From: Streptomyces sp. TS71-3
Lineage (GTDB): Bacteria; Actinomycetota; Actinomycetes; Streptomycetales; Streptomycetaceae
Assembly (NCBI RefSeq): GCF_018327685.1
Contig: NZ_BNEL01000001.1
Location: 4,836,001 to 4,900,000, forward strand
Length of the DNA: 64,000 bases
Direction: 5' to 3'
Positions 9,742-29,871 of this stretch are shown piece by piece (positions within the stretch are counted from its first letter, which is position 1; each line of letters starts with the position of its first letter). A program made the translations under genes and the position numbers. Below the pieces are notes generated by a model. It had not been told where the DNA came from. It saw only the letters and a program-made list of their open reading frames with translations, and did no database searches.

Positions 9742-11154
9742 ATGCCCGACATCTCCGGCTCGCATCTGATGGACTCACGCGTCCTGGGCGACCTGTTCAC
9801 CTCCGAGGCCATGCGGGCCGTCTTCACCGACCGGGCCATGGTGCAGTCCTGGCTGGACGCCGAGGTGGCCCTGGCCGGGGCACAGGCCGGGCTGGACATC
9901 ATCCCCACGGAAGCCGCCGCACACATCGCCGACGCCGCCGACGCCGGACGGTTCGACCTCGACGCCATGGGCCACGAGGTCGGACGGACAGCACACCCGC
10001 TGGTGCCGTTGGTACGCCGGCTGGCCGAGGAGGCCGGTCCCCGTTGGGGTGCTTACGTGCACTACGGGGCCACTACCCAGGACATCACCGACACCGGACT
10101 CGTCCTCCAGGTACGGGCCGCGATAGAGCTGACCGAACGCCTGCTGCGCGATCTGATCCGGCAGCTCGCCGATCTGGCCGAGCGCCACCGGGACCTGCCG
10201 ATGGTCGGGCGTACACACGCACAGCACGCCCTGCCGATCACCCTCGGGTTCAAGTTCGCCGTCCTGCTGGCCGAGTGCGAACGCCATGCCGACCGGCTGC
10301 GGGACGCCCGCCCGCGGGTGCTGGTCGGCCAACTTGGCGGCGCTGTCGGATCGATGGCCGCCTTCGGCGGGCGGGGGCCCGAACTGCAGGACGCGATGGC
10401 CCGCCGTCTCGGGCTCGGCAGTGCCCCCGTGCCCTGGCACAGCGCACGCGACGGCCTCGCCGAAGTGGTCGGGGTAGTCGCCATGGTCGCCGCCACATGC
10501 GGGAAGATCGCCAACGAGGTACGCGTCCTGCAGCGCACCGAGGTCGCCGAGCTGGCAGAACCGTTCACCACCGGCAAGGTCGGCAGCAGCACGATGCCGC
10601 ACAAGCGCAACCCGATGTTCTGCGAGTACATCATCGCCAGCGCCATCCTGTGCCGGCAGGCGCCGGCGAGCATGCTCGCGGCGATGCACCAGGAGCACGA
10701 GCGGGACATGAGCCTGTGGGGTGTCGAGTGGGCCGTGGTGCCCGAGACGTTCTGCCTGGCCGCCGGGCTGCTGGAGCGGACCGGGTGGATCCTGGACGGT
10801 CTGGTCGTCCACCCCGAGGCGCTGTACCGCAACCTGCACACCCTCGGAGACCTGATGCTGTCCGAGGCGGCGATGATGCACGTCGCCGGAGCCATGGGCA
10901 AGACCGCCGCTCACGACGCGGTGTACGAGGCCTCGATGGCGGCCTGGGAGACCGGCCGGCCGCTGCGGGACCTGCTCTTGGAGAGCCCGGCGGTCACGGC
11001 GTCCGGCGCCGACCTCGACGAACTCGGTGAACTGCTCGTACCCGAGCGGTACCTGGGTTCGTGCGGTGCACTCGTGGACCGCACGGTGGCACGCGCCAGA
11101 GCCTTCCTCGCCCACACCGGGGTGTCCGCCACGGCGCCGGAGGAGGCCGCGTGA
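9742..11154 (+). CDS. Lyase of the fumarase/aspartase superfamily (adenylosuccinate lyase or carboxymuconate cycloisomerase-like)
   Basis: A 470-residue cytoplasmic enzyme of the superfamily that eliminates or adds across a C-N or C-O bond adjacent to a carboxylate. The signature loop GSSTMPHKRNP (around residue 290) holds the catalytic Ser region; HYGATTQDITDTG and GRTHAQHALPITLG are the other two active-site segments. ATG 9742 is preferred because family similarity begins there and GGAAGG precedes it; an in-frame ATG at 9652 overlaps the permease stop and would add 30 unconserved residues. Being in an importer operon rather than with purine genes argues against housekeeping purB. The substrate is probably an N-substituted dicarboxylate (inference). 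Confidence 0.88.
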   Translation: MPDISGSHLMDSRVLGDLFTSEAMRAVFTDRAMVQSWLDAEVALAGAQAGLDIIPTEAAAHIADAADAGRFDLDAMGHEVGRTAHPLVPLVRRLAEEAGPRWGAYVHYGATTQDITDTGLVLQVRAAIELTERLLRDLIRQLADLAERHRDLPMVGRTHAQHALPITLGFKFAVLLAECERHADRLRDARPRVLVGQLGGAVGSMAAFGGRGPELQDAMARRLGLGSAPVPWHSARDGLAEVVGVVAMVAATCGKIANEVRVLQRTEVAELAEPFTTGKVGSSTMPHKRNPMFCEYIIASAILCRQAPASMLAAMHQEHERDMSLWGVEWAVVPETFCLAAGLLERTGWILDGLVVHPEALYRNLHTLGDLMLSEAAMMHVAGAMGKTAAHDAVYEASMAAWETGRPLRDLLLESPAVTASGADLDELGELLVPERYLGSCGALVDRTVARARAFLAHTGVSATAPEEAA

Positions 11155-12056
11155 GCCCCGACTCCCGCGCCGTGGGGTTCATAGGCCTGGGCGCGATGGG
11201 GGGCCGGATGGCGGCCCGGCTGCTCGCGGCCGGCCACCGGGTGCACGGCTGGAACCGCTCCTCGGACCGTCTGGCACCACTGACCGCCGCCGGCCTCGAA
11301 CCCTGCGCCACCCCGCGCGAGGTGGCGGCGCGTGCCGGGACGGTGCTCGTCATGGTCTGGGACTCCGAGGCACTGCTCGCCGTGACGGAGGGACCCGACG
11401 GACTGCTGTCGGGGATGACAGGCGAGCACGTCCTGGTGGACCTCAGCACGGTCGAACCCCACGTCAGCCGCCAGGTGGCGGCCCGCGTACGGGAGCGGGG
11501 CGGCCGGATGCTCGACTGCCCGGTCTCCGGAAGCCTGGACGCAGCCGAAGCCGGCACCCTCGTCCTGCTGGCCGGCGGACCGTCCGGCGCCCTGGACCGG
11601 CTGCGTCCCACGCTGGAGGTACTGGCCGAGCGGATCATCCACCTCGGTGAGGACAACGGCCTCGGACTGGCCATGAAACTCGCCGTCAACCTCCAGGTAG
11701 CCCTTCAGGCGGTCGCCTGGGGCGAGGCCATGGTGGTGGCCGAGGACGCGGGAATCGACCGGGCGGCGGCTACCGAGGCCATGCTCGCCAGCGTCATCGC
11801 CTCCCCGATGCTGCGTTACCGCGCCCCCTTCCTGCTGCGCGAGCCCGCCGAGGTGTGGGCCAGCGCCGCGCAGCTCCGCAAGGACGTCGCCTACGCCACC
11901 AGCGGCACCGGCGGTCGCACCCCTTCCGGGGACCTCGCGCTGCGGCTGCTCGACGCGGTCTGTGCCGCGGGCGACGGCGACCGGGAGGCGGCACAGCTGA
12001 TGAGACATGTGGCGGACTGCCGGGGGACCGGGCCCGCCGAAGGGAGCGAGGCATGA
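11151..12056 (+). CDS. NAD(P)-dependent 3-hydroxyisobutyrate dehydrogenase-like oxidoreductase (copy A)
   Basis: A 301-residue beta-hydroxyacid dehydrogenase. The Rossmann motif GFIGLGAMGGRMAARLL starts at residue ~8; the substrate-binding segment DCPVSGS and the catalytic lysine in GLAMKLAVNLQ are present. The family oxidises 3-hydroxy acids or reduces their semialdehydes. GTG 11151 overlaps the lyase stop (GTGA) and follows GGAGGAGG. A paralogue lies on the opposite strand at 23705-24649, part of a duplicated enzyme set. Confidence 0.9.
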   Translation: MSPDSRAVGFIGLGAMGGRMAARLLAAGHRVHGWNRSSDRLAPLTAAGLEPCATPREVAARAGTVLVMVWDSEALLAVTEGPDGLLSGMTGEHVLVDLSTVEPHVSRQVAARVRERGGRMLDCPVSGSLDAAEAGTLVLLAGGPSGALDRLRPTLEVLAERIIHLGEDNGLGLAMKLAVNLQVALQAVAWGEAMVVAEDAGIDRAAATEAMLASVIASPMLRYRAPFLLREPAEVWASAAQLRKDVAYATSGTGGRTPSGDLALRLLDAVCAAGDGDREAAQLMRHVADCRGTGPAEGSEA

Positions 12057-13096
12057 GGGCTGCCGTCTACCACGGGCCGGGCGACGTCAGGGTGGGCACG
12101 GTGCCGGACGCCCCCGCGCCGGGGCCCGGGGAGGTGACCATCGGGGTACGGCTGTGCGGGCTGTGCGGCACGGACGCCCACGAGTTCGCGCACGGTCCGG
12201 CCATGATCCCTTTGCACACTCGTCACCCGGCTTCCGGGCACCTGGGGCCGATGGTCCCCGGACACGAGTTCATGGGCGTGGTGACGGCGACCGGGCGGGG
12301 GGCGGCGATCGCACCGGGGACGCGTGTGGTGGCGGGGGCCGGCCGCTGGTGCGGTCGCTGCCCGGCATGCGCGGGGGGCCGTACCAACCTGTGCCACAGC
12401 TACAACACGCACGGCCTGAACCGGGACGGCGGACTCGCCGAATACGTCACCGTGCCCGCCGCCATGTGCGCGGTGGTCCCCGACGGCTGCGCCGACGAGG
12501 ACGCGGTCCTCGCGCAGCCCCTCGCGATCGCCCTGCACGCCCTCAACCGCTCGGGTGCCGGACCCGGCGATCCGGTAGTGGTCTTCGGAGCCGGTGGCAT
12601 CGGCACCCTGCTGATTGCCGCAGCGGCCTTCCGGGGCACGCCGGTCCATGTCCTGGATGTCGACCCGGAGCGCCTGGAGACCGCTGTCGCGCTGGGTGCG
12701 GCATCGGCGCGGATCGCGGACGCGGCCGGACTGGACGCCGTCCGGACGCTCGGCCGGACCGGCGCCCCGGTGGTGATCGAGGCGTCGGGTGCGGCGGCCG
12801 GCCTGCGCGACGCGCTGCGCGTCACCGGCGCCGGCGGCCGTGTCGTGCTGCTGGGGCTGCCGAGCACCGCCCCTGAGGTCGACGTCCGGGGCGCGGTCGT
12901 GGCGGAGGTCGACCTGATCTCCACCAGCGCGCATGTCTGCGCGAGTGACCTCCCCGAGGCGGTCGCGGCGCTGGACGCCCGGCCGATCGCCGGCCTGGTC
13001 GTGGACCGCGTCGTGCCGCTGGAGGAGGTCGTGGCGGGGGCGCTCGCACCGCTTGCGGCGGGCCGGCTGCGCGGCAAGGCCGTGGTGCGGGTGTGA
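12053..13096 (+). CDS. Zinc-dependent alcohol/polyol dehydrogenase (MDR family)
   Basis: A 347-residue medium-chain dehydrogenase. The catalytic zinc region is GLCGTDAHEF and GHEFMG; the structural zinc cysteines are in WCGRCPACAGGRTNLC; the NAD motif is VVFGAGGIGTLL. Spacing resembles 2,3-butanediol/sorbitol dehydrogenase-type enzymes. ATG 12053 overlaps the preceding stop, with AGGGAG upstream. It is the last gene of the importer transcription unit before a 110-bp gap. The substrate is presumably a secondary alcohol formed in the pathway (inference). Confidence 0.9.
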   Translation: MRAAVYHGPGDVRVGTVPDAPAPGPGEVTIGVRLCGLCGTDAHEFAHGPAMIPLHTRHPASGHLGPMVPGHEFMGVVTATGRGAAIAPGTRVVAGAGRWCGRCPACAGGRTNLCHSYNTHGLNRDGGLAEYVTVPAAMCAVVPDGCADEDAVLAQPLAIALHALNRSGAGPGDPVVVFGAGGIGTLLIAAAAFRGTPVHVLDVDPERLETAVALGAASARIADAAGLDAVRTLGRTGAPVVIEASGAAAGLRDALRVTGAGGRVVLLGLPSTAPEVDVRGAVVAEVDLISTSAHVCASDLPEAVAALDARPIAGLVVDRVVPLEEVVAGALAPLAAGRLRGKAVVRV

Positions 13097-13206
13097 GGCG
13101 GCGGTCACCTGACGGGGGCCCCGTGCCTCGGGCCTGCTCGACGGCGCCCCTGGTCAATTAGGGAATTTTTCTACACTTTATTAAAAACGTGCACAAAGGA
13201 GTGGAC
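13097..13206 (+). promoter_or_regulatory. AT-rich gap, probable promoter of the amidohydrolase operon
   Basis: After 40 bp of GC-rich DNA the sequence turns strikingly AT-rich (about 13155-13188), unlike the tightly overlapping genes upstream. A weak -10-like TACACT is at 13172-13177. The ribosome site AAAGGAG is at 13195-13201. A separate promoter is likely; no operator was recognised. Confidence 0.35.
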
Positions 13207-14607
13207 ATGAACGGCGCTGAACGGCTCCTCCTGCGCAACGGCACCGTGATCACGATGGATGACGAGCTCGGCGACTTCGACCGGGCCGACGTCCTCGTGT
13301 CCGGCGGGAAGATCGACGCCGTCGCACCCGACCTGGGCGCGGTGGACGCCCGCGTCATCGAGGCGCGAGGCATGATCGTCATGCCGGGGATGGTGGACAC
13401 ACACCGGCACACCTGGCAGGCGGCACTGCGCGGGATCGCTGCCGACTGGACGCTGGGCCAGTACATGACCGGCCTGCATCTGGGTCTGTCCGCGCTGTTC
13501 ACCCCGGAGGACACCTACGCCGGCAACCTGCTGGGAGCCGTCGAGGCGCTGGATTCCGGCATCACGACGATGCTGGACTGGTCGCACAACGTGAACACCG
13601 CCGCACACAGCGACGCCGCCGTGCAGGGGCTGTTCGACGCCGGGATCCGAGCGGTCTTCGCGCACGGCGGCGGCGCCGACATGTACCAGGTGCCCAGCAC
13701 CGTGCCGCACGACGAGGACGTCCGCCGGGTCCGCGACCGGTACTTCTCCTCCGGAGCTCAGCTCTGCACGATGGCCATGGCCCTGCGCGGACCGCAGTTC
13801 GCCACGATGGACGTCACCGAGTCCGATCTGCGGCTCGCCCGCGAGCTCGGCCTGCCCGTCACCCTGCACGTGGGCGACGGCGAGTGGGGGCGCAGCCGTC
13901 CCGTGACCCGGATGCGCGAGCGCGGACTGCTCGGTCCGGACATCACGTACGTGCACTGCAACACCCTCGCCGACGACGAGCTGCGTGACATCGCCGACTC
14001 CGGAGGCAGCGTGTCCATCGCCCCCGACATCGAGATGCAGATGGGCCACGGCTGGCCCGCCACCGGACGGCTGACGGGGGTCGGCATCCGGCCCAGCCTG
14101 TCCATCGACACCTGCGTCTCCAACAGCGGGCACATGTTCGGCACCATGCAGATCTGCCTGGCCACCCAGCGCGCACTGGACAACCAGGAGCCCGGCGCCA
14201 GCGACCGCCCCGCCGTCTCCCTCACCTCGCGCGACGTGCTGTCCTTCGCCACCGTCGACGGCGCACGGGCCTGTGGCCTCGCAGACCGCGTCGGCAGCCT
14301 GACCCCCGGCAAGCAGGCCGACATCGTCGTGCTGCGCACCGACAATCCCTCGCTCTCACCGGTCAACAACCCGGTGGGGCAGGTCGTGTACGCGGCGCAC
14401 CCCGGTCTGGTGGACACCGTCGTGGTCGCGGGCCGGATCGTGAAGACCGCCGGCCACCTGCACGGCGATGTCGCCGAGCGGGCCCGGAATCTGGCGATCG
14501 CCAGCCGCGACTCGCTCTTCGAGCGCACCCGGCACACCGCGAACCTGGCCGACGCGCACACCGGGGGCGGCTGGCAGCCCGCGCCGCTGGTCACCTCGCG
14601 GCTGTGA
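13207..14607 (+). CDS. Metal-dependent amidohydrolase, ATZ/TRZ (guanine/cytosine deaminase-like) group (copy A)
   Basis: A 466-residue amidohydrolase expected to hydrolyse a C-N bond, as in deaminases and chlorohydrolases of this group. Visible metal and active-site residues: H66 and H68 (MVDTHRH), H221 (LHVGDGEWG), H250 (VHCNTL) and D301 (LSIDTC). The C-terminal beta-sandwich carries the usual GSLTPGKQADIVVLR. ATG 13207 is chosen because AAAGGAG lies 5 bp upstream; an in-frame GTG at 13189 has none. It has a clear paralogue on the opposite strand at 17637-18971, sharing IAADWTL and EMQMGHG. Followed by an M24-fold enzyme and an ALDH. Confidence 0.9.
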   Translation: MNGAERLLLRNGTVITMDDELGDFDRADVLVSGGKIDAVAPDLGAVDARVIEARGMIVMPGMVDTHRHTWQAALRGIAADWTLGQYMTGLHLGLSALFTPEDTYAGNLLGAVEALDSGITTMLDWSHNVNTAAHSDAAVQGLFDAGIRAVFAHGGGADMYQVPSTVPHDEDVRRVRDRYFSSGAQLCTMAMALRGPQFATMDVTESDLRLARELGLPVTLHVGDGEWGRSRPVTRMRERGLLGPDITYVHCNTLADDELRDIADSGGSVSIAPDIEMQMGHGWPATGRLTGVGIRPSLSIDTCVSNSGHMFGTMQICLATQRALDNQEPGASDRPAVSLTSRDVLSFATVDGARACGLADRVGSLTPGKQADIVVLRTDNPSLSPVNNPVGQVVYAAHPGLVDTVVVAGRIVKTAGHLHGDVAERARNLAIASRDSLFERTRHTANLADAHTGGGWQPAPLVTSRL

Positions 14608-14666
14608 TGCCGGCCGTCCCCCCACACACACACCGCACCACGGACACCGTGAAAGGAAGCACCACT

Positions 14667-16028
14667 ATGGGTATCGCCACCTACGGCTCGACCAACGTCG
14701 ACTGGGAGGCGCGCATCGACATGGACCGGCTGCGCCGCGAGCGGCTGGCCCGGCTGCGGGCCCAGTTGGAATCCTCCAGCTTCGGCGCGCTGCTGGCCTT
14801 CGACTTCGCCAACATCCGGTACATGACGGCCACGCACATCGGCACGTGGGGTTCGGACAAACTGGTCCGGTTCGCCCTGCTGGTGCGTGGCGCAGAGCCG
14901 GTCATCTGGGACTTCGGCTCCGCGGCCCGCCACCATCAGCTCTACAACCCCTGGCTGGGCGACGAGGAGACCGACTCGGAGACCGGGGTGCGCACTCCAG
15001 TTCCCGGCACCTCCCGCTCGTACCCCGGCATCTCCACGCTCCGCGGCGCCCTGCACCCCGACGGTGGGCAGGCGGAGAACGTCGCCGCCCGAGTACTGGC
15101 GGAGCTGCGCAAGCACGGCCTGGAGAACGAACCAGTCGGCGTCGACTTCGTCGAAATGCCGGTGCACCGGGCGCTGACGCAGGCCGGTCTGGACATCGCC
15201 GACGGCCAGCAGGTCTTCCTGGAGGCCCGCCGGGTCAAGACCCGTGATGAGATCTCACTGCTCACCCACGCCTGCGGCCTGGCCGACATGGCGTACGAGG
15301 AGCTGTACGGGTTCCTGCGGCCCGGTGTGAAGGAGAACGAGACCGTCGGACTGGTGAGCAAGATCCTCTACGACGGGGGTTCGGAGTGGGTCGAGGGCAT
15401 CAACGCCATCTCCGGCGAGCGGTGCAACCCGCACCCGCACCTGTACTCCGACCGCATGGTCCGGCCCGGCGACCCCGCCTACTTCGACATCGTGCACAGC
15501 TACATGGGCTACCGCACCTGCTACTACCGCACGTTCTCCGTCGGCAGCGCCTCCCCGGCGATGAACGACGCGTACAAGAGGGCCCGGGACATCATGGACG
15601 AGTCGCTCGCCGCGGTGAAGCCGGGTGCGACGACCGCTGACATCGTCTCGCTGTGGCCGCGGGCCCAGGACTTCGGGTTCGCGAACGAGGAGGCCGCGTT
15701 CGCCCTCCAGTACGGGCACGGTGTCGGGCTGTCGGTCTGGGAGAAGCCGATATTCAGCCGGATGACCTCGCTGGACCACCCGGAGGAGCTCAAAGAGGGC
15801 ATGGTCTTCGCCCTGGAGACCTTCTGGCCGGCGCGGGACGGCTGGTCGGCCGCGCGCATCGAGGAGGAACTGGTGGTCACCGCTGACGGCTGTGAGGTCA
15901 TCACGCGCTTTCCCGCGGAGGAACTCCTCGTCGCCGGGCAGCGCTACTTCGCCGCCTCCGGGCCGCTGCCCGCCGTCCGCGAACCGCAGTCGCACCTCAA
16001 CAACCCCACGCTGCGCGCCCGCTCGTGA
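14667..16028 (+). CDS. M24 peptidase-fold enzyme, DddP/creatinase-like (copy A)
   Basis: A 453-residue pita-bread-fold protein: N-terminal creatinase-like domain (FANIRYMTA; PVIWDFGSAARHH) and C-terminal M24 domain. Layout resembles DMSP lyase DddP and other non-peptidase M24 proteins. Metal ligands visible are Asp in YFDIVHSYMGYR, His in YGHGVG, Glu in ALETFWP and Glu in RIEEELVV. The second Asp expected in the GY..D..RT segment appears to be replaced: the sequence reads GYRTCYYRTF. The copy at 22382-23641 has the identical change. ATG 14667 has AAAGGAAG upstream. The reaction is unknown; C-N or C-S cleavage is possible. Confidence 0.85.
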   Translation: MGIATYGSTNVDWEARIDMDRLRRERLARLRAQLESSSFGALLAFDFANIRYMTATHIGTWGSDKLVRFALLVRGAEPVIWDFGSAARHHQLYNPWLGDEETDSETGVRTPVPGTSRSYPGISTLRGALHPDGGQAENVAARVLAELRKHGLENEPVGVDFVEMPVHRALTQAGLDIADGQQVFLEARRVKTRDEISLLTHACGLADMAYEELYGFLRPGVKENETVGLVSKILYDGGSEWVEGINAISGERCNPHPHLYSDRMVRPGDPAYFDIVHSYMGYRTCYYRTFSVGSASPAMNDAYKRARDIMDESLAAVKPGATTADIVSLWPRAQDFGFANEEAAFALQYGHGVGLSVWEKPIFSRMTSLDHPEELKEGMVFALETFWPARDGWSAARIEEELVVTADGCEVITRFPAEELLVAGQRYFAASGPLPAVREPQSHLNNPTLRARS

Positions 16029-16075
16029 CGCCCTGCCCACCCCACCACCGTCACCCTCACGACAGGAGGTCCCAC

Positions 16076-17572
16076 GTGACAACCCCCGAGCCGACGGAGC
16101 CCGGGCCGGCCGGGCTGCGGATGCGGATCGGCGGCGAATGGCGCGAAGCGCTGTCCGGCGCCCGGTTCGAGACCGTCAGCCCCTTCACCGGACAGCCCTG
16201 GGCGAGCGTTCCCGACGCGGGCCCCGAGGACGTCGATCTCGCGGTGCGCGCCGCCGAGAAGGCCCAGTACGGTGTGTGGGGCCGCACCACCGGCTTCGAA
16301 CGGGCCCGTCTGATGCACCGGCTGGCCGATCTCATGGAACGGGACGCGGAGCGGCTGGCCGCAACCGAGACCCGCGACAACGGAAAGCTGCTGCGCGAGA
16401 TGCGCGGGCAGATGGAGTACCTCCCGTCCTGGCTGCGCTACTTCGCAGGCGTCGCCGACAAGCTACAGGGCGAGGTCATCCCCTCTGACCGGCCGAACTT
16501 CATGGTGTACACCCGGCACGAGCCGGTGGGCGTCGTGGGGGCCATCGTCCCGTGGAACTCCCCGTTGATGCTCCTGATGTGGAAACTGGCGCCGCTGCTC
16601 GCTGCCGGCTGCACCCTGGTGCTCAAGCCGTCCGAGCACACTCCGGTCTCCGCACTGGAGTTCGCCGGGCTCGTGGAGGAAGCCGGTTTTCCCGCCGGTG
16701 TGTTCAATGTCGTGACCGGGCAGAGTGCCGACCTCGGGCGCGCGTTGGTCGAGCACCCGGGTGTCCGGCACGTCGCGTTCACCGGCTCTCCGGGCGTCGG
16801 TATGAAGGTCGCCCAGGCCGCGGCCGGGCACTTCGCCCGCACCACTCTCGAACTCGGCGGCAAATCAGCCCAGTTGGTCTTCCCCGACGCCGACCTGGAG
16901 GCCGCGTCCAACGGCGTGATCGCCGGAGTCTTCGCGGCCACCGGGCAGACCTGCGTGGCAGGCTCCCGTCTCGTGGTCCACCGCGACGTCCACGACGCCC
17001 TGTTGGAGCGGGTGGCCGAACGGGCCGCGAGGATCGTGCTGGGCGACCCCGCGGCGCCGGACACCGAGATGGGCCCGCTGGCCAACGCGGCGCAGTTCGC
17101 CACGGTCAACGGCTTCGTCGAGCGTGCCGTCGCGGACGGCGCGACGGTGCTCACCGGCGGGCGGCCCGACCCCGACCTCGGCGGTCTGTTCTACCGGCCG
17201 ACGGTGCTGACCGGCGTGCGCCCGGAGATGGAGGTCGCCCGAGAGGAGATATTCGGACCCGTACTGTCGGTCCTCACGTTCGACACCGAGGAGGAGGCGG
17301 TCGAACTGGCCAACTCCACGCGCTACGGCCTCGGCGCGGGCGTGTGGACGGAGGACCTGCGACGTGCCCACCGCGTGGCGCACGAACTACGCGCTGGCAA
17401 CGTGTGGGTGAACGCCTACCGGGTGGTCGCCCCGAACGTGCCGTTCGGTGGCACCGGCGCCAGCGGGTGGGGCCGGGAGAGCGGCGTGGAAGCGGTGCGT
17501 GAGTACACCGAGACGAAGGCGGTCTGGATCGAACTGAGCGGTGCCACCCGCGACCCGTTCACCCTGGGCTGA
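16076..17572 (+). CDS. NAD(P)-dependent aldehyde dehydrogenase (copy A)
   Basis: A 498-residue ALDH oxidising an aldehyde to the acid. Visible are the cofactor-binding VPWNSP, the general-base Glu in LELGGKSAQLVF and the catalytic Cys in ATGQTCVAGSR, followed by the late EEIFGPVLSV motif. GTG 16076 is supported by ACAGGAGG at 16062-16069. It ends the plus-strand half of the island, 64 bp from the tail of the converging minus-strand operon, with a bidirectional hairpin between. Betaine-aldehyde or hydroxymuconic-semialdehyde type enzymes look closest; the real substrate is undetermined. Confidence 0.9.
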   Translation: MTTPEPTEPGPAGLRMRIGGEWREALSGARFETVSPFTGQPWASVPDAGPEDVDLAVRAAEKAQYGVWGRTTGFERARLMHRLADLMERDAERLAATETRDNGKLLREMRGQMEYLPSWLRYFAGVADKLQGEVIPSDRPNFMVYTRHEPVGVVGAIVPWNSPLMLLMWKLAPLLAAGCTLVLKPSEHTPVSALEFAGLVEEAGFPAGVFNVVTGQSADLGRALVEHPGVRHVAFTGSPGVGMKVAQAAAGHFARTTLELGGKSAQLVFPDADLEAASNGVIAGVFAATGQTCVAGSRLVVHRDVHDALLERVAERAARIVLGDPAAPDTEMGPLANAAQFATVNGFVERAVADGATVLTGGRPDPDLGGLFYRPTVLTGVRPEMEVAREEIFGPVLSVLTFDTEEEAVELANSTRYGLGAGVWTEDLRRAHRVAHELRAGNVWVNAYRVVAPNVPFGGTGASGWGRESGVEAVREYTETKAVWIELSGATRDPFTLG

Positions 17573-17583
17573 CGGCGTGCGCG

Positions 17584-17617
17584 AGTGCCGGGGCCACATC
17601 CGGACGGTCCCGGCACT
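17584..17617. terminator. Bidirectional hairpin between converging operons
   Basis: AGTGCCGGG (17584-17592) pairs perfectly with CCCGGCACT (17609-17617) in the 64-bp gap between two converging genes. No U-tract, as usual in Streptomyces. Confidence 0.65.
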
Positions 17618-17636
17618 AGGGTGTTCGCCGATCGCG

Positions 17637-18971
17637 TCAGACGGCGGGCACGACGGCGAACGGGGAACCGGCGAGCACGCGGTCCCGAGAGGAGCATGCG
17701 CGGTCGTGGAGGGCGCGCGTGTCCTGTCCCAGCAGACGGCCCTCTGCCTTGACGACCCGACCCGCGACGAGCACTGTGTCGACGTTGTCACCGGCCGCGA
17801 GAGTGACCGCCGCCGGTAGGTTGTTGACGGGGCCGAGGTTCGGCAGGTCCACCCGCAGCAACACGATGTCGGCCTGCTTGCCGGGTGTCAGGGAGCCGAT
17901 CCGGTCCTCCAGGCCGAGCGTGCGGGCGCCCTCGATGGTGGCCATGCGCACCACGTCGGCCGTCGTGGGCACCAGCTCGGTGATCCGCTCCCCGCGGTCG
18001 AGGGCCCGCTGGTTGCGCAGCCCTCGCTCGGCCTCCAGGGTGCCGCGCATCTCGGCGAACATGCTGCCGCCGACCGCACTGACCACGTCGATGCTCAGGC
18101 TCGGTCCGATGCCGGCCGCAAGCAGGCGTCCGGTGGCCGGGTAGCCGTGCCCCATCTGCATCTCCACCCGCGGCGAGACCGACACATGGCCGCCGGACCG
18201 GGCGATGCGGCGCAACTCGTCGTCCGTGCAGGTGGAGCAGTGTACGTGGATGAGGTCGGGCCCGAGCAGCCCGGCCTCGTCCATCCGGGTCACCGCCCGT
18301 ACCGCGCCGAGCGCGCCGGCACCCACGTGCAGCGAGGTGCGGACGCCCAGGCGGCGGGCGAGCGCGATGTCCGCCGCGGTCTGCTCCAGCGAGGAGAACT
18401 CCGGCCCGAGGCTCGCCAGCGCGAGGGTGAGCAGTCGGTCCGGGGTCGCGAAGTACGTCGCGGCGACCCGCTCGACGTCCTGCTCGTACCAGGTGTTCAC
18501 GGGCGAACTGGGGGAACCGTAACCGAAGACGGCACGGATTCCGGCGTCCGTCAGGGCCTGCACGGCCGCGTCCGCGTGCTCCGGGGTGTTCATGATGTGT
18601 GACCAGTCCATCACCGTGGTCACCCCGCCGCCCAGCGCTTCGAGCGCGCCGAGCAGGTTGCCGATGTGGACGTCCTCCGCGGAGAAACGAGGACCGATCA
18701 GGCCCAGCATCCGTTCCGCGTATTGTTCCAGTGTCCAGTCGGCGGCGATCTGGTGCAGTGACGACTGCCATAGATGCCGGTGGCTGTCCACCAGGCCAGG
18801 CATCACGATCATGTCCGAGGCATCGATCAGCCGCGCGCCGTCAGCTCGCAGGTCCTTCCCGACGGCGGAGATGCGGCCGTCCTCCACAAGGACGTCGCCG
18901 GTGTCGATGTCGCCGAGGTGTGGATCGACGGTCATGACGGTGCCGCCGCGGATCAGAAGGGTGTCACTCAT
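17637..18971 (-). CDS. Metal-dependent amidohydrolase, ATZ/TRZ group (copy B)
   Basis: A 444-residue paralogue of the amidohydrolase at 13207-14607. The same ligands are visible: H64 and H66 in VDSHRH, His in LHVGAGALG, His in VHCSTCTDDEL and Asp in LSIDVVS, plus the GSLTPGKQADIVLLR tail. ATG 18971 (MSDTLL) is preferred because homology begins there; upstream in-frame codons encode no conserved sequence. The GAAGG ribosome site is weak. It is the last gene of the minus-strand operon driven from about 24.7 kb. A substrate related to that of copy A, with different specificity, is likely (inference). Confidence 0.88.
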   Translation of the reverse strand: MSDTLLIRGGTVMTVDPHLGDIDTGDVLVEDGRISAVGKDLRADGARLIDASDMIVMPGLVDSHRHLWQSSLHQIAADWTLEQYAERMLGLIGPRFSAEDVHIGNLLGALEALGGGVTTVMDWSHIMNTPEHADAAVQALTDAGIRAVFGYGSPSSPVNTWYEQDVERVAATYFATPDRLLTLALASLGPEFSSLEQTAADIALARRLGVRTSLHVGAGALGAVRAVTRMDEAGLLGPDLIHVHCSTCTDDELRRIARSGGHVSVSPRVEMQMGHGYPATGRLLAAGIGPSLSIDVVSAVGGSMFAEMRGTLEAERGLRNQRALDRGERITELVPTTADVVRMATIEGARTLGLEDRIGSLTPGKQADIVLLRVDLPNLGPVNNLPAAVTLAAGDNVDTVLVAGRVVKAEGRLLGQDTRALHDRACSSRDRVLAGSPFAVVPAV

Positions 18972-19026
18972 TTCGTAGCCTTCGCATCTCGATTGGTCGG
19001 CCGAAGGGTCGTGCGCCCGACGGAGG

Positions 19027-20670
19027 TCAGGCGTCGAAGGGGCCGGTGGCGTGCACGGGCTTGCCACCCACGAGGGTCAGCAGTGATGTGATGCCGGCGA
19101 TCTCCCCGGCGGGTACGGAGAAGTAGTCGTCGCTCAGGACTGCCAGGTCGGCGCGTGCGCCCGGGGCCAGGTGCCCGCGGTCGGCCTCCTCGAAGGAGAA
19201 CCAGGCGTTACCGCGCGTATACAGTTCCAGCGCCTTCGCCCGGGTCAGCCGGTGGTGCGGCGCCCGCCGGGTACTCCCGTCCAGGGAACGGCCCTCGTGC
19301 AGCCACCACAGCGCGAGCCAGGGGTTGTGTGAGGACGCCCGCGAAGCGTCGGTCCCGGCACCGAGCGGGATGCCGGCCGCCAGCAGATCGCCCAGCGGAG
19401 GCACGTTCGCCATCGCGTCGCTGCCCCACCGCTCCGCGCTGGCCGCCGCCTTGAAGACCTGGTGGTCGTCGGCGATCACCCCGGCCCCTAGGGTGGCCAG
19501 TCGGTGGAGGTTGCGAGAGCTGATGGTGTCGGCATGGGCGAGGGAGAAGCGCATGTCCCGGATCGGGATGTCCCGGTCGACCTCCTCCCAGACGTCGAGG
19601 ATCCGGCCGATCGTCGTGTCAAGGACTGCGTGAATGTGCATGGGCCAGCCCCGTTCGGCCACGCGCCGGGTGATGGCCGACAACTCCGCGTGGGCTGTGC
19701 GGTCCAGTTCGAAGGGCTCCAGCCCCTCGAAGTCGTGGCAGCCGTAGTGCACGACCTCCCCGATGCCGGTCATACGCACCATGGCGTCGCCGAACCCCGC
19801 CTGCGTGTGCCGTAGCCACCCCTCCAACTGGGCGATCTCCTGTCCGGCGTCCACCGCTGAGGCGAACAGCCGGAAACGGGCGGTCAACTCCTCTGCCCGC
19901 CACAGGTCGAACAGCGTGTCGTAGCGCTCGGGCGCCATGCCGAACCCGCCGGGGTCGAGGACGCCGGTCAGGCCCAGGGCGTTGAGGTCCGCGAGCATCG
20001 CGCGGGTGGATGCCCGCCGGGCCTCCGGGCTCGGGTCCGGCATCGCGGCCAGGACACGGTTGAACGCCCCCATGCCCCGAATCACACCGGTCGCGCGGCC
20101 GGTGGCGGGATCGCGTTCGACCGCCCCACCGGGGAGATTCTCGGCCCAGTCGTCCAGGCCCACGGCGTCCGCTGCCGTGCTGTTGAGGACTGCCAGGTCG
20201 TACAGCGCCTGCACGTAAACCGGCCGGTCGGGCGCGACGGCGTCGAGTTCCGCGCGGCTCGGTGAGCGCCGCTCGGCGAACTGAGTGGGGTGCCAGCCCC
20301 CGATGACGCGGATCCAGGTGCCGGGCGCGGAGGCGCGGGTGGCGTCGCGGATGGCGGAAAGGGCTTCGTCCAGCGTTTTGACCCCGGACCAGTGGAGTTC
20401 GTCCGCCCACGTGGCACCAGCTCGTACCGCGTGCGCGTGACCGTCGATGAGGCCCGGGACGACCCGGTGCCGGCGCAGATCAATGACCTCGGTGCCCGGC
20501 CCGGCCAGGGCAAGGACGTCGTGATCGGTGCCGAGGGCGGCCACTCGGCCGCGCGAGACGGCGAGCGCCTGGTGCCCGCCCGGGCCATGGCATTCCCCGT
20601 GGCCCGACCAGACGCTTCCGTTGACATAAAGGGTGTCCGGGGCCTGATGGGCAAGCCGACTCAGCTGCAT
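19027..20670 (-). CDS. YtcJ-like amidohydrolase (exoenzyme/N-substituted formamide deformylase type)
   Basis: A 547-residue protein of the YtcJ/amidohydrolase_3 family. Visible are the metal motif GLIDGHAH near residue 75, a late HIHAVLD, SLAHAD and the GAGTDASRAS segment, with ALELYTRGNAW and GHLAPGARADLAVL near the C-terminus. Known members include N-substituted formamide deformylase, so an amide or formamide bond is the likely target. It differs clearly from the two ATZ/TRZ-type paralogues nearby. ATG 20670 has GAAAGGA just upstream. It lies 172 bp downstream of the aldehyde dehydrogenase gene with a strong hairpin between, so it may be only partly co-transcribed. Confidence 0.88.
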   Translation of the reverse strand: MQLSRLAHQAPDTLYVNGSVWSGHGECHGPGGHQALAVSRGRVAALGTDHDVLALAGPGTEVIDLRRHRVVPGLIDGHAHAVRAGATWADELHWSGVKTLDEALSAIRDATRASAPGTWIRVIGGWHPTQFAERRSPSRAELDAVAPDRPVYVQALYDLAVLNSTAADAVGLDDWAENLPGGAVERDPATGRATGVIRGMGAFNRVLAAMPDPSPEARRASTRAMLADLNALGLTGVLDPGGFGMAPERYDTLFDLWRAEELTARFRLFASAVDAGQEIAQLEGWLRHTQAGFGDAMVRMTGIGEVVHYGCHDFEGLEPFELDRTAHAELSAITRRVAERGWPMHIHAVLDTTIGRILDVWEEVDRDIPIRDMRFSLAHADTISSRNLHRLATLGAGVIADDHQVFKAAASAERWGSDAMANVPPLGDLLAAGIPLGAGTDASRASSHNPWLALWWLHEGRSLDGSTRRAPHHRLTRAKALELYTRGNAWFSFEEADRGHLAPGARADLAVLSDDYFSVPAGEIAGITSLLTLVGGKPVHATGPFDA

Positions 20671-20743
20671 TGCAAGGGTCCTTTCGTCGGCACATCGGCG
20701 TCCGACGGGTGGGGAGGGACGGTCTGGGTGGAGTCGTGGACGA

Positions 20744-20775
20744 GGGGCCGCGGCTCCGTGAGGCGCCGCGGCCCC
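20744..20775 (-). terminator. Strong hairpin downstream of aldehyde dehydrogenase B
   Basis: GGGGCCGCGG (20744-20753) pairs perfectly with CCGCGGCCCC (20766-20775), a 10-bp stem with a 12-nt loop in the gap after the ALDH gene. It could terminate or attenuate transcription before the YtcJ-like gene. Confidence 0.6.
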
Positions 20776-20842
20776 CGAGCCCCGGAAGGGACGGTGGGGA
20801 GGCCCGTCATGTTCCGAGGCAGTTCCGAGGCGGCCGGAAGGG

Positions 20843-22318
20843 CTACCAGTTCAGGGCCGTGTACTGGGACTCGGTGTAGTCCAGCAGCCCTTCGTGGCCG
20901 CCCTCACGGCCTATGCCGCTCTGCCGGGTGCCCCCGAAGGGGGCCGCGGGATCGGACACGACACCCCGGTTGAGGCCGACCATGCCGGAGTCAAGGCGTT
21001 CTCCGACGCGTAGGCCGCGTGCGAGGTCGGAGGTGTACACGTAGGAGACCAGGCCGTACTCGGTGGCGTTGGCCAGGCGGATCGCCTCGTCTTCGGTGTC
21101 GAACGCGACGATCGGTGCCACGGGGCCGAATATCTCCTCGCGCAGGATGGATGCGTCGTGCGGAACGTCGGACAGCACCGTGGGCGGATAATAGTGGCCG
21201 ACGCCCTGCGGAAGGATGCCGCCGGTGACGAGCGTCGCCCCTGCCCGCACCGAATCATCGACGAGTTGGGCGACCTTGTCGCGGCTTTCGGCGTTGACGA
21301 GGGGGCCGAGGCGGACACCGTCCTCCAGGCCGGGCCCGGTGCGCAGCGCCGCCATGGCGTCGGCGAGGCGGCGGGTGAACTCCGCCGCGATCGGGCGCTC
21401 GGCGTAGAAGCGGTTCGCGGCGGTGCACGCCTCCCCGCCGTTGCGCATCTTGGCGACCATGGCGCCGGCCACCGCCTCGTCCAGATCGGCATCGGCGAAG
21501 ACGAGGAAGGGGGCGTTGCCGCCCAGTTCCATCGAGCAGTTGACCACCGTGCGGGAGGCTTCGGCCAGCAGGGTCCTGCCGACTTCGGTGGACCCGGTGA
21601 ACGACAGTTTACGCACTCTGGGGTCGTCCAGCATGGTGGAGACCACCGCTTTGGAGCGGCGTGAGGGCAGGACGTTGACGACCCCGTCCGGTACGCCCGC
21701 CTCCTCCAGGACAGCCGCGAGAGCGAGGGCGGTCAGCGGGGTGTCGCTGGCTGGCTTGAGGACGACGGTGCAGCCGGCCGCCAGCGCGGGGCCGATCTTG
21801 CGGGTGGCCATGGCCGCGGGGAAGTTCCAGGGTGTCACCAGCACGCAGACCCCGACGGGCTTGCGCAGCACGAGGATCCTGTTGGTGCCGGAGGGCGCGG
21901 TCTGCACGGTGCCGAGGACCCGTACCGCCTCTTCGGCGTACCAGCGGAAGAACTCGGCCGCATAAGCCACTTCGCCGCGGGCGTCGGCGAGGGTCTTACC
22001 GTTCTCCAGCACGATGAGTTCGGCGAAGTCCTCGGCCCTGGAGATGATCAGGTCGAAGGCCCTGCGCAGCACTTCGGCCCGCTCGCGGGGCGGGGTGGCC
22101 GCCCAGCCGGGCAGTGCGGCGTCGGCGGCTGCGACGGCGTCGAGTGCGTCCTGCGGGGTGGCGCCGGCGACGTGGGCCAGCGTGTCGCCGGTGGCAGGGT
22201 CAAGGACCTCGAAACGTTCGCCGTCCCCGGCAGGGCGCCAGCCACCGCCGACGAACAGGTCGGTGGGTATGGTCCCGGCTCTGGCTCGGGCCGGGGAACC
22301 CGGCGCGTGTGCGGTCAC
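20843..22318 (-). CDS. Succinate-semialdehyde dehydrogenase-like aldehyde dehydrogenase (copy B)
   Basis: A 491-residue NAD(P)-dependent ALDH, closest in motif style to GabD succinate-semialdehyde dehydrogenases: VTPWNFPAAMATRKIGPALA, general-base Glu in MELGGNAPFLVF, catalytic Cys in GGEACTAANRFY, and EEIFGPVAPIVAF. Full length. GTG 22318 follows CAGGAGG. It sits 63 bp after the M24 gene in the minus-strand operon, mirroring the M24-ALDH pair at 14667-17572. It would convert a semialdehyde made by the HIBADH-like or hydrolytic enzymes into an acid for central metabolism (inference). Confidence 0.9.
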   Translation of the reverse strand: MTAHAPGSPARARAGTIPTDLFVGGGWRPAGDGERFEVLDPATGDTLAHVAGATPQDALDAVAAADAALPGWAATPPRERAEVLRRAFDLIISRAEDFAELIVLENGKTLADARGEVAYAAEFFRWYAEEAVRVLGTVQTAPSGTNRILVLRKPVGVCVLVTPWNFPAAMATRKIGPALAAGCTVVLKPASDTPLTALALAAVLEEAGVPDGVVNVLPSRRSKAVVSTMLDDPRVRKLSFTGSTEVGRTLLAEASRTVVNCSMELGGNAPFLVFADADLDEAVAGAMVAKMRNGGEACTAANRFYAERPIAAEFTRRLADAMAALRTGPGLEDGVRLGPLVNAESRDKVAQLVDDSVRAGATLVTGGILPQGVGHYYPPTVLSDVPHDASILREEIFGPVAPIVAFDTEDEAIRLANATEYGLVSYVYTSDLARGLRVGERLDSGMVGLNRGVVSDPAAPFGGTRQSGIGREGGHEGLLDYTESQYTALNW

Positions 22319-22381
22319 AGTCTTGTCCTCCTGCTTGTGCGGGCCGTCGAGGGCCCGGGACCGGTGGGGTGGGCGAGATCA

Positions 22382-23641
22382 TCAGTAGCGATTGGCGACG
22401 AAGAGTTCCTGCGCGGGAAAGCGGGTGAGCACCTCGGCACCGGTCTCGGTGACAACGACCTCCTCCTCGATGCGGGCGGCGGAGAAGCCGTCGGACGCCG
22501 GGCAGTAGGTCTCAAGGGCGAAGACCATCCCCTGCTGGATCTCCACCGGGTCCTCAAGGCTGTTGAGGCGGCTGATGACGGGGCGTTCGTGCAGGCCGAG
22601 CCCGAGTCCGTGACCGAACTGGAGCCCGAAGGCGGCCATCTCGTTCGCGAAACCGAACTCGGTGGCGGCCGGCCACACCCGGGCGACCTGGTCGGTGCCG
22701 ATGCCGGGGCGGACGATCTCGATCGCGGCATCCATCCACTGGCGGGCCCGCGCGTAGGCGTCACGCTGGGAAGCGGTGGAGCTGCCCACGGCGAAGGTGC
22801 GGTAATAACAGGTGCGGTAGCCGTTGTAGGACTGGATGATGTCGAAGAACGCCTGGTCGCCGGGGCGGATGATGCGGTCGGAGAAGTTGTGCGGGTGCGG
22901 GTTGCACCGTTCGCCGGAAACCGCGTTGATCGCCTCGACCTGGTCGGAACCCATCTCGTACAGGCGCTTGTTGGCAAGCGCGACGATCTCGTTCTCGCGC
23001 ACGCCGGGTTTGAGGGCCTCGGTGATGTCCTGGTAGACCCCGTCGACCATGGCCGCGGCCATCGACAGCAGCGCGATCTCGTCCTCCGACTTGATCTGCC
23101 GGGCGTCCAGCATCAACTGCTGGGCGTCGACGACGCGCAGGCCCTGGCGCTCCATCTCGAACAGGAACGGGGGCTCGACGATGTCCACCCCGACCGGCAG
23201 CTCGGCCACCCCGGCATCCCGGAGCATGCCCTTGATCTCGGTGACCGCTGCGCGCATCAGCCCGGCGTCCGGGGAGATCGCCCCGCGCAGACCGAGCATC
23301 CCGGCCCGGGAATTCTCCGGCCGCAGCCAGGGCGCGTACATCTGGTGATGGCGGGCGGCGGAACCGAAGTCCCACAGCACCGGTTCTCCGCCGCGGGTCA
23401 GCAAGGCGTACCGCGTCATCTTGTCGCCGAGGGCGCCGCCGATCCAGGTCTGCGTGGAGTAGCGGATGTTGTAGAAGTCGAACAGCAGGAACGCCCCGCA
23501 CTCACTGGACTCCAGGACCGCGCGGGTACGGTCGAGGCGGTATGTGCGCAGGCGGTCGTAGTCGACGCGTCGCTCGTAGTCGACTGCGCTGTGGCCGTAT
23601 GCGGGGATGGGGCGGGCGGGGCGCGGTTCGTCGAGGTTCAT
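22382..23641 (-). CDS. M24 peptidase-fold enzyme, DddP/creatinase-like (copy B)
   Basis: A 419-residue paralogue of the protein at 14667-16028. The N-terminal creatinase-like domain shows FYNIRYST and PVLWDFGSAARHH; the C-terminal catalytic domain shows Asp in FFDIIQSYNGYR, His in FGHGLG, Glu in ALETYCP and Glu in RIEEEVVV. As in copy A the segment reads GYRTCYYRTF, so the usual second Asp ligand is missing. ATG 23641 has GAAGGA about 12 bp upstream. It lies between the HIBADH-like and ALDH genes. The shared substitution argues for a common specialised, non-peptidase activity. Confidence 0.85.
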   Translation of the reverse strand: MNLDEPRPARPIPAYGHSAVDYERRVDYDRLRTYRLDRTRAVLESSECGAFLLFDFYNIRYSTQTWIGGALGDKMTRYALLTRGGEPVLWDFGSAARHHQMYAPWLRPENSRAGMLGLRGAISPDAGLMRAAVTEIKGMLRDAGVAELPVGVDIVEPPFLFEMERQGLRVVDAQQLMLDARQIKSEDEIALLSMAAAMVDGVYQDITEALKPGVRENEIVALANKRLYEMGSDQVEAINAVSGERCNPHPHNFSDRIIRPGDQAFFDIIQSYNGYRTCYYRTFAVGSSTASQRDAYARARQWMDAAIEIVRPGIGTDQVARVWPAATEFGFANEMAAFGLQFGHGLGLGLHERPVISRLNSLEDPVEIQQGMVFALETYCPASDGFSAARIEEEVVVTETGAEVLTRFPAQELFVANRY

Positions 23642-23704
23642 GGCTGCGGGAACGTCCTTCGTGGCTGGGATGAACGGGCCTCGGAAAGCGGGGCAGCGGC
23701 CGGC

Positions 23705-24649
23705 TCAGGACGCGGAAAGACCGTCGTCCATGGAGGCGTCCTCGGCTTCGATGTCCAGCCCGGAGCGGCGGGCTTGTTCGAGAATCAAGGTGGCGAAGTC
23801 CTCGTCCACCTGGCCGGCACCGATGGCACCGGCCACGAGCTGCGCGGTGGCGGAGGCGACGGGCATCGGCACCTCCAGCTCCCGCGCGGCCTCAAGCCCG
23901 AGGTCGAAGTCCTTGCGTAGCAGCGGCATGGTGAACGTGGGCCGGAAGTCGAGGTTCACCAGCGCGGGCGACTTGTAGCGGGTGAAGACCGAGCCCATGA
24001 CGGAGTCGTTGAGGAACTCCAGGAACGCCGCCCGGCTCACTCCGCCCTTCTCGGCCAGGACCGTGATCTCCGCGAGGGACTGGGTGACCACGCCGAGGAA
24101 GACGTTGTGAGCGATCTTCACCAGCCGGGCGACCTCGCCCTGGCCGACGTAGGTGACCCCGCGCCCCAGCAGGCCGAGCAGGGGTTCGACCTGGTCGAAG
24201 ACCGGGCGCGGTCCTGAGACGGCCACGGTGAGCTTGCCGGCCGCGATGACCTTGGGGTTACCACTGACCGGCGCGGCGAGGAAGCCGGTACCCCGGTCGG
24301 CGGCGCGGGAGCGCACGAGAGCGGAGACCTGGGCGGAGACGGTGGAACTGTCGATCAGCACGCTGGGGGAGGCGTCGGGATCGGTGAGCACGCCGCCCTC
24401 ACCTGTGGTGACCGCCTCCAGGTCGGCGGACGCGGACACCATGATGAACACGACGTCGCGGTCGGCCAGCTCGCAGGGGCGGTCGACGACGGTGGCCCCC
24501 TGCCCGGCCAGCGGTTCCGCCTTGGCGCGGGTGCGGTTGTAGACCGCCACGTCGTGCCCGGCCGCCAGGAGCCGTGCGGCGAGTTGGTATCCCATCCGGC
24601 CGGTGCCGATCCAGCCGATGCGGGGACGGTCCAGTGTGGTGTAGGTCAT
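23705..24649 (-). CDS. 3-hydroxyisobutyrate dehydrogenase-like oxidoreductase (copy B)
   Basis: A 314-residue beta-hydroxyacid dehydrogenase: Rossmann motif GWIGTGRMGYQLAARLL near residue 11, substrate segment APVSGNPKVIAAGKL, catalytic Lys in RLVKIAHNVFLG. Paralogue of 11151-12056. ATG 24649 (MTYTTL) is chosen because AAGGAAAG lies directly upstream; more upstream in-frame ATGs run into the operator. It is the first gene of the minus-strand operon, divergent from a LacI regulator, with a perfect palindrome 32 bp upstream of its start. Confidence 0.9.
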   Translation of the reverse strand: MTYTTLDRPRIGWIGTGRMGYQLAARLLAAGHDVAVYNRTRAKAEPLAGQGATVVDRPCELADRDVVFIMVSASADLEAVTTGEGGVLTDPDASPSVLIDSSTVSAQVSALVRSRAADRGTGFLAAPVSGNPKVIAAGKLTVAVSGPRPVFDQVEPLLGLLGRGVTYVGQGEVARLVKIAHNVFLGVVTQSLAEITVLAEKGGVSRAAFLEFLNDSVMGSVFTRYKSPALVNLDFRPTFTMPLLRKDFDLGLEAARELEVPMPVASATAQLVAGAIGAGQVDEDFATLILEQARRSGLDIEAEDASMDDGLSAS

Positions 24650-24680: not shown

Positions 24681-24694
24681 TGCAATCGATTGCA
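24681..24694. promoter_or_regulatory. LacI-type operator, perfect 14-bp palindrome
   Basis: TGCAATCGATTGCA is a perfect palindrome 32 bp upstream of the HIBADH-like start, in an AT-rich gap. It is a likely binding site for the LacI protein encoded at 24898. Confidence 0.7.
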
Positions 24695-29737: not shown

Positions 29738-29762
29738 GGCACTCCTTGATGCTGCTAGGGCT

Positions 29763-29772: not shown

Positions 29773-29846
29773 TTTCTACAAGGACACATCGCTTGACGGG
29801 GTCCAATGCCCGTAAACTATGCACTCTGGCATCATGGAAGGCAAGG

Positions 29847-29860: not shown

Positions 29861-29871
29861 GAGGATTTTTC

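Follow-up and report, generated by a model that had tools for sequence, protein, structure and literature searches.

The question raised by this locus is why four enzyme families should each be encoded twice, once on each strand, within a short segment of the genome of Streptomyces sp. TS71-3. The window, by which we mean the whole stretch of 64,000 nucleotides that was analysed (contig NZ_BNEL01000001.1, positions 4,836,001-4,900,000, of a 9.79 Mb genome in three contigs), contains two gene cassettes, each with a HIBADH-like dehydrogenase, a TRZ/ATZ-type amidohydrolase, an enzyme of the M24 fold, and an aldehyde dehydrogenase (ALDH). An earlier note on this DNA described cassette 1 (HIB1, AMH1, M24a, and ALDH1) and cassette 2 (HIB2, AMH2, M24b, and ALDH2) as mirror-image paralogous sets. 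We consider it probable that they are two independently inherited catabolic cassettes that now lie tail to tail, each with its own compound and its own LacI regulator, and with the same kind of central M24 enzyme. Each cassette appears in other genomes without the other, and the trees point to different histories for the paired genes; the argument draws on family assignments, separate ancestry, recurrence, operator-like palindromes, and residue changes, and from these we infer the enzyme steps. What deserves more interest than the duplication is that Cys-variant M24 enzymes recur in association with 2-oxo acid dehydrogenases.

Histories of the paired genes

All eight genes reported in the earlier note lie at the positions given there and are assigned to the four families by Pfam and NCBIfam, although their description as paralogous sets holds for only two of the four pairs. 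The M24 enzymes (54% identical) and the amidohydrolases (52%) are mutual best other matches in the genome, M24b scoring 488 bits against M24a (the next match scores 49.6), and AMH2 scoring 441 bits against AMH1 (317 for the next). The HIBADH (36%) and ALDH (40%) pairs are not, with HIB2 ranking third for HIB1 (114.3 bits versus 117.4 and 117.4), and ALDH2 ranking 13th of 30 other own-genome matches of ALDH1 (308 bits versus 420 for the best). The note had also proposed trees of the four pairs as a check, and these give no common split, so that the duplication idea fails. Separate 100/100 clades hold M24a and M24b, both extending across several families, and the M24b clade includes two alphaproteobacterial plasmid rows (66 rows in all). 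AMH1 groups with seven other cassette-1 loci and AMH2 with locus L165 alone (47 rows), and different clades hold HIB1 and HIB2 (90 rows, of which part was read) and ALDH1 and ALDH2 (44 rows, with four very long branches). By these trees and ranks the M24 and amidohydrolase pairs are old paralogues, and the HIBADH and ALDH partners come from different subfamilies.

Gene organization

Cassette 1 begins with LacI1 on the minus strand, followed on the plus strand by genes for a binding protein, two permeases, a lyase, HIB1, an alcohol dehydrogenase (ADH), AMH1, M24a, and ALDH1. Along the window cassette 2 reads AMH2, YtcJ, ALDH2, M24b, and HIB2 (minus), then LacI2 (plus), and is followed by E2 and E1 of a 2-oxo acid dehydrogenase (minus) and by VOC and GntR genes (plus). 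The genes and candidate elements are as follows; ABC denotes ATP-binding cassette.

5236..6285, minus: LacI1, LacI-family regulator of cassette 1 (Pfam LacI and Peripla_BP)
6473..6486: candidate LacI1 operator, palindrome GGGGATCGATCCCC, between LacI1 and the binding protein gene
6766..7698, plus: binding protein of the sugar type (Peripla_BP_4), cut short and joined in frame to the final codons of an ABC ATPase (alignment to L006)
7695..8681, plus: ABC permease 1, RbsC type (tblastn 55-69% in L006-L008 and L010-L012)
8684..9655, plus: ABC permease 2 (BPD_transp_2, Pfam)
9742..11154, plus: fumarase/aspartase-superfamily lyase, adenylosuccinate lyase / PcaB-like (Lyase_1 and ADSL_C; every NCBIfam match is under its cut-off)
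11151..12056, plus: HIB1, beta-hydroxyacid (HIBADH-like) dehydrogenase (NAD_binding_2 and NAD_binding_11)
12053..13096, plus: Zn alcohol/polyol dehydrogenase (ADH_N and ADH_zinc_N)
13207..14607, plus: AMH1, TRZ/ATZ-type amidohydrolase (NCBIfam NF006056, 558.8 bits, cut-off 391)
14667..16028, plus: M24a, M24-fold enzyme with D274, C285, H351, E384, and E399 (Pfam PF00557)
16076..17572, plus: ALDH1, aldehyde dehydrogenase lacking the residues with which succinate-semialdehyde dehydrogenase (SSADH) binds the carboxylate (Aldedh, 597.8 bits)
17637..18971, minus: AMH2, TRZ/ATZ-type amidohydrolase (NF006056, 529.2 bits, cut-off 391)
19027..20670, minus: YtcJ-like amidohydrolase (Amidohydro_3, Pfam, 284.5 bits)
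20843..22318, minus: ALDH2, SSADH-type (Pfam; solved relatives; Arg, Arg, and Ser residues)
22382..23641, minus: M24b, second Cys-variant M24 enzyme (Pfam; 54% to M24a)
23705..24649, minus: HIB2, HIBADH-like dehydrogenase (Pfam)
24681..24694: candidate LacI2 operator TGCAATCGATTGCA, with weaker copies at 24799-24812 and 24851-24864
24898..25941, plus: LacI2, regulator of cassette 2 (Pfam; 74% orthologue in L165)
26206..27525, minus: E2, dihydrolipoamide acyltransferase (2-oxoacid_dh, E3_binding, and lipoyl domains)
27554..29824, minus: E1, fused alpha/beta thiamine diphosphate-dependent 2-oxo acid dehydrogenase (E1_dh, Transket_pyr, and Transketolase_C)
29806..30375, plus: VOC (glyoxalase-fold) protein of the E1/E2 module (Pfam; recurs with E1)
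30387..31064, plus: GntR/FCD regulator of the E1/E2 module (Pfam; recurs with E1)

The two sets do converge at about 17.6 kb, ending at 17,572 and 17,637, and the lyase, Zn-ADH, YtcJ-like hydrolase, and E1/E2 genes that had been noticed beside them are recognised by Pfam and NCBIfam. The sets are not mirror images, because the amidohydrolase follows HIBADH and ADH and precedes M24 in one but comes last in the other: cassette 1 is transcribed as HIB-ADH-AMH-M24-ALDH, and cassette 2 as HIB-M24-ALDH-YtcJ-AMH. Beyond the E1/E2 module, an ApbE flavin transferase and a membrane flavoprotein resembling ferric reductases are encoded side by side (32108-34856), followed by a two-component system (34975-37196).

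Occurrence in other genomes

The recurrence of the neighbourhood, a check that the earlier note had proposed, was found for each cassette separately. With the M24 pair as query at least 594 stretches matched, of which 378 encode relatives, and the best 80 were retained as named loci, some of which end at contig edges. Cassette 1 is found in seven of the 80 (L006-L012), some of them cut by contig ends. Split E1 genes adjoin M24a in L006-L010, and an E2 gene precedes it in L007-L010; L006 resembles the window closely (M24a 91%, AMH1 84%, and ALDH1 84% identical). The Amycolatopsis locus L011 contains the whole of cassette 1 with a LacI1 orthologue (61% identical) beside it, and neither split E1 nor E2 within its 21 kb. 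In L012, from Subtercola, cassette 1 runs into the row ALDH1-ApbA-E2-E1-VOC-GntR, with E2 and E1 on the minus strand, which corresponds to the flanks in the window minus cassette 2. Because L012 has both flanks without cassette 2, cassette 2 looks as if inserted between ALDH1 and the E1/E2 module.

Cassette 2 has a counterpart in L165, from the same genus, with E2, LacI2 (74%), HIB2 (83%), M24b (86%), ALDH2 (82%), YtcJ (66%), and AMH2 (70%), and no cassette 1 after it. More diverged versions of its enzymes are present in L170 and L171 (YtcJ 42%, AMH 35%, M24b 68%, HIB2 52%, and ALDH2 68%), and a HIB2-M24b core, often with ALDH2, is seen in many M24b loci.

Two genome samples give a broader view, although genomes with both M24 types may be missed in them because most rows scored no more than four candidates per genome. 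In a class sample of 394 genomes (M24 match threshold E<=1e-60), 48 have either M24 type and at least five have both; in a genus sample of 392, 58 match, seven of which have the M24b type (called at 68% identity or more), and at least three of these also have the M24a type. The two types are 170 kb apart in genome G019 and on two contigs in G008. Among the loci and genomes examined, both complete cassettes are seen together in the window only.

Two other arrangements deserve mention. On G177 contig 56 (27-50 kb) and G256 contig 36 (191-215 kb), both from one family, M24a and M24b types lie about 22 kb apart, the intervening stretch having been read in part. In seven loci from environmental actinobacterial genomes (L041, L052, L054-L056, L059, and L060), which we take to be freshwater genomes, the neighbours of M24a are sugar ABC genes, genes for dehydrogenases and a VOC protein, and a further gene that has no Pfam match and is presumably EboE-like. 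The last of these led us to consider the breakdown of mycosporine-like amino acids, a candidate that was set aside, as nothing relevant was found among the matches listed in the literature search.

Regulation

With HIB2 taken to start at 24649, the perfect palindrome TGCAATCGATTGCA is located 31 bp upstream of it, and none of 100 shuffles reached three matches. At one mismatch or fewer it has two sites in the genome, one of them exact and both between HIB2 and LacI2, and the reversed control pattern has five. The LacI2 palindrome also occurs between HIB2 and LacI2 in L123 (exactly) and in L165 (as TGCAATCGGTTGCA), and once in L126, away from HIB2. The cassette 1 palindrome GGGGATCGATCCCC has a single exact copy in the 9.79 Mb genome and two more places at one mismatch; it was not found in L011. 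The two LacI regulators proposed in the earlier note are indeed distinct genes flanking the cassettes, mutually 33% identical, and since the palindromes differ the cassettes are probably switched separately, with both sites being candidate operators.

The M24 enzymes and their metal site

M24 enzymes bind metals through Asp, Asp, His, Glu, and Glu. Both window proteins are clear members of the fold, with PF00557 scores of 122.5 and 132.6 bits against a gathering cut-off of 23, and a Foldseek comparison of the M24a model gives a probability of 1.00 to prolidases and DddP, with matches also to EutD and creatinase. The five canonical ligands of an Xaa-Pro peptidase are incomplete, the second Asp being replaced by Cys. 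In an alignment of 303 sequences, which are the nearest relatives by search and thus a non-random set with some repeats, this position is Cys in all 303, the other four ligands are kept in 303, 303, 302, and 302 (both misses being gaps), and the PHPH histidine is invariant. The Cys is also present in two relatives of 32-37% identity, and a solved prolidase has Asp there; the distant M24 matches in the same genome have either the normal Asp (L003) or neither Asp nor Cys (L004 and L005).

This variant is abundant. Matches to M24a at E<=0.001 number 8000 proteins or more, and none of the 120 listed is below 70% identity; relatives span actinobacterial families and Phaeobacter plasmids. Where sources name them, the names are of the kind 'Xaa-Pro aminopeptidase', 'Xaa-Pro dipeptidase', and 'M24 family metallopeptidase', although the metal site together with the gene neighbours argues against a peptidase function. 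We suggest tentatively, and with somewhat less conviction than for the separate origin of the cassettes, that a large, mostly actinobacterial Cys-site M24 subfamily does an unrecognised C-N hydrolysis or elimination in an undescribed route ending in its own 2-oxo acid dehydrogenase, and that the two forms in the window serve two branches of it.

Association with a 2-oxo acid dehydrogenase

Linkage to E1 was counted by tblastn in the fetched flanks of M24 (about 10 kb), a locus of at least 19 kb being taken as full-length. E1 is near M24a in 36 of 46 full-length loci (46 of 80 when cut loci are included) and near M24b in 15 of 19 (18 of 26). The expected frequency is about 1.6% per 21.4 kb stretch, from 196 E1_dh matches in 60 genomes (about 262 Mb), a background that was measured by hidden Markov model search and not by tblastn. 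As the loci are phylogenetically related, the linkage counts are not independent and we claim no probability. By the same tblastn counts HIBADH is in the flanks of 47 of 80 M24a and 22 of 26 M24b loci. For ALDH, with both types counted, the figures are 20 of 80 and 16 of 26, and for TRZ amidohydrolase they are 31 of 80 and three of 26. The recurring linkage of M24 and E1 suggests one recurring chemistry, in which alcohol oxidation, bond cleavage by M24, and aldehyde oxidation would be followed by oxidative decarboxylation to acyl-CoA, the order of steps being the one we propose. We found no description of the association of Cys-variant M24 enzymes with 2-oxo acid dehydrogenases in the open-licence literature searched, and the earlier suggestion that the pathway is undescribed agrees with this, as no published account of it was found there either.

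Aldehyde dehydrogenases and the predicted reactions

In Escherichia coli GabD the residues that contact the substrate carboxylate are R164, R282, and S445 (PMC2823781). At these positions ALDH2 has Arg, Arg, and Ser, and ALDH1 has Trp, Ala, and Val. Nine solved relatives match ALDH2 at E<=1e-100, eight of them named SSADH, and its score to TIGR01780 is 560.6 bits, under the curated cut-offs (646.35 and 828). The residue difference suggests that the product formed by cassette 2 should be a semialdehyde with a carboxylate and that formed by cassette 1 an aldehyde without one, and thus that the two have different intermediates. The best solved relative of HIB2 is 2-hydroxymethylglutarate dehydrogenase, a distant match at 131.9 bits.

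A plausible scheme is that each cassette degrades a separate organic compound, probably one that is sugar-like or N-substituted. NAD(P)-dependent HIBADH and ADH would oxidise alcohol groups, and the TRZ/ATZ, YtcJ, and M24 hydrolases together with the lyase would cut C-N or other C-heteroatom bonds, the central enzyme being a 'pita-bread' M24 hydrolase or lyase whose metal site is changed from Asp to Cys. The aldehyde released could then be oxidised by ALDH, with a substrate carboxylate positioned approximately as in succinate semialdehyde in cassette 2 and without one in cassette 1, and the resulting 2-oxo acid would enter central metabolism as an acyl-CoA formed by a dedicated E1/E2 complex. 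This step could be provided for both cassettes by the fused E1/E2 module that lies beyond cassette 2.

Pantothenate breakdown, by pantothenase followed by dehydrogenases for pantoate and aldopantoate, was considered for cassette 2, because HIBADH, SSADH, and a 2-oxo acid dehydrogenase would fit; we assume pantothenate to be an example of a 4-hydroxy acid amide, the freed hydroxy acid of which HIBADH and SSADH would oxidise. The decarboxylating (dimethylmalate) dehydrogenase that this needs was not recognised in cassette 2, the literature search listed a paper on coenzyme biosynthesis and one on a metabolic model but no direct support, and pantothenate stays a guess.

The incomplete transporter of cassette 1

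The earlier note included an importer; the permeases and a binding protein gene are present, but the ABC ATPase gene is missing from the locus and the binding protein is truncated, so that this is not a complete CUT2 sugar ABC importer. Window positions 7318-7618 align to L006 1-301 and 7630-9655 to L006 2268-4298. Relative to L006, from S. spinosisporus, about 1.95 kb is gone at 7618-7630, which removes the last part of the binding protein gene and almost the entire ATPase gene and leaves a single in-frame open reading frame. The closest other ATPase in the genome is 41% identical. The split E1 genes of L006-L010 are likewise absent from cassette 1 here. An E1 pair elsewhere in the genome (contig 3, 1.538-1.540 Mb) is 43% identical to that of L006, a comparison outside which the two other E1 loci of the genome lie. 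The strain may draw on another ATPase and on the fused E1/E2 next door; alternatively, cassette 1 may be in decay.

We note that the stretch L191 of the same genome (contig 3, 1533000-1552900) contains a third related-looking cluster, with a split E1, a PcaB-like lyase (39%), a short-chain dehydrogenase/reductase (SDR), a LacI regulator, and a sugar-type ABC ATPase; no M24a or M24b match was found in this stretch.

Alternative explanations

The earlier proposal implies that one ancestral cassette was copied and inverted in this lineage, with the copies diverging to two related substrates. The four shared families and the mutual best matches of the M24 and amidohydrolase pairs would fit, but we regard this as highly improbable and reject block duplication, because the trees and the own-genome paralogue ranks give the pairs different histories. 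The M24a/M24b split predates the sampled genera, with two alphaproteobacterial plasmid rows even lying within the M24b clade, the HIBADH and ALDH pairs are not closest relatives, and the gene order is unmirrored. Decay of cassette 1 in this strain, left without an ATPase or its own E1/E2, is unlikely in our view. The in-frame fusion with its missing transporter sequence, the lack of a close ATPase copy elsewhere, and the lack of the split E1 genes speak for it; however, the remaining cassette 1 enzyme reading frames are all open and, as noted for L006, resemble their relatives, L011 and L012 are likewise without split E1, another ATPase might energise the permeases, and an assembly error at 7618-7630 is possible.

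A further model is one composite pathway, in which both cassettes degrade a single compound, handling its two halves or successive stages of its breakdown, and have the E1/E2 module in common. Both cassettes adjoin that one module, cassette 1 here is without its own E1, and the carboxylate preferences of the two ALDHs, as predicted from their residues, would be complementary. Nonetheless, the LacI palindromes differ, a single M24 type is present in 43 of the 48 matching class-sample genomes (with at most four candidates per genome scored in most rows), and the gene contexts differ elsewhere, and we think a composite pathway rather doubtful. Several observations do weigh against two independently inherited cassettes, and some of these favour the composite model. 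M24a and M24b types are within about 22 kb in three of the five class-sample genomes with both (this genome, G000, together with G177 and G256), and they are also close in two named loci, about 10 kb apart in L038 and about 2 kb apart in L080; such co-location is beyond chance, so that a joint role is possible and the pairing itself may not be accidental. The apparent insertion of cassette 2 comes from one contig, L012. No perfect palindrome was found in the scanned stretches upstream of HIB2 in L120, L124, L130, and L166, which have LacI2 relatives, and no E1 is within reach in 10 of 46 M24a and four of 19 M24b full-length loci, L011 with its whole cassette 1 among them. The M24a model, with a pLDDT of 68 (middling confidence), confirms the fold only, and the cassette functions are predictions from gene content.

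The window is a natural test, having two separately regulated cassettes in one strain. Discovery of the substrates would give a recurring catabolic pathway a function and correct many annotations.

Comparison with known systems

The closest parallel for the M24 enzymes is the dimethylsulfoniopropionate (DMSP) lyase DddP, which has the same fold, is among the top sequence (4s00/4rzy/4b28) and structure matches, and is a non-peptidase M24 enzyme acting in catabolism. The metal ligands of DddP are D295, D297, D307, H371, E406, and E421 (PMC4108388). Of these ligands, the equivalents of D295, H371, E406, and E421 are kept in the Cys-variant enzymes (D297 being outside the comparison), and the place of D307 is taken by Cys. 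Membership of DddP itself was rejected, with scores of 123.7 and 106.6 bits against an NCBIfam equivalog cut-off of 600, and, unlike DddP, the Cys-variant enzymes often have sugar-type transporters and 2-oxo acid dehydrogenases as neighbours. Ectoine hydrolase (DoeA/EutD) and creatinase are structural matches as well, and are M24-fold C-N hydrolases of catabolic paths, although scores to the ectoine hydrolase models, whose cut-offs are 575-613 bits, reach 45.9-65.1 bits, and no further ectoine-catabolism gene was recognised in the cassettes.

Among the other enzymes, AMH1 and AMH2 exceed the NF006056 cut-off and are thus PRK08204-type TRZ/ATZ amidohydrolases, a family that is itself named 'hypothetical protein'. 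ALDH2 is like GabD in retaining the three carboxylate-contacting residues, and unlike it in setting, as no gene of gamma-aminobutyrate catabolism was recognised adjoining ALDH2.

The nearest gene arrangement is that of Phaeobacter and Pacificitalea plasmids, where the row M24-E1a-E1b-lipoyl-SSADH-E2 (with LpdA in Phaeobacter) has genes for a sugar ABC transporter, SDRs, and a HIBADH as neighbours. The compact row M24-E1a-E1b-lipoyl-SSADH-E2-LpdA on the Phaeobacter gallaeciensis plasmid pGal_E78, typed as conjugative (L185, 11929-20312), is a good minimal model of the pathway core. Although these clusters are alphaproteobacterial, have a split E1 and ThuA and SDR genes, have no TRZ amidohydrolase in the stretch read, and are annotated without a pathway function, they are like cassette 2 in combining an M24b relative (65%), an SSADH (60% to ALDH2), a HIBADH, and a dedicated 2-oxo acid dehydrogenase.

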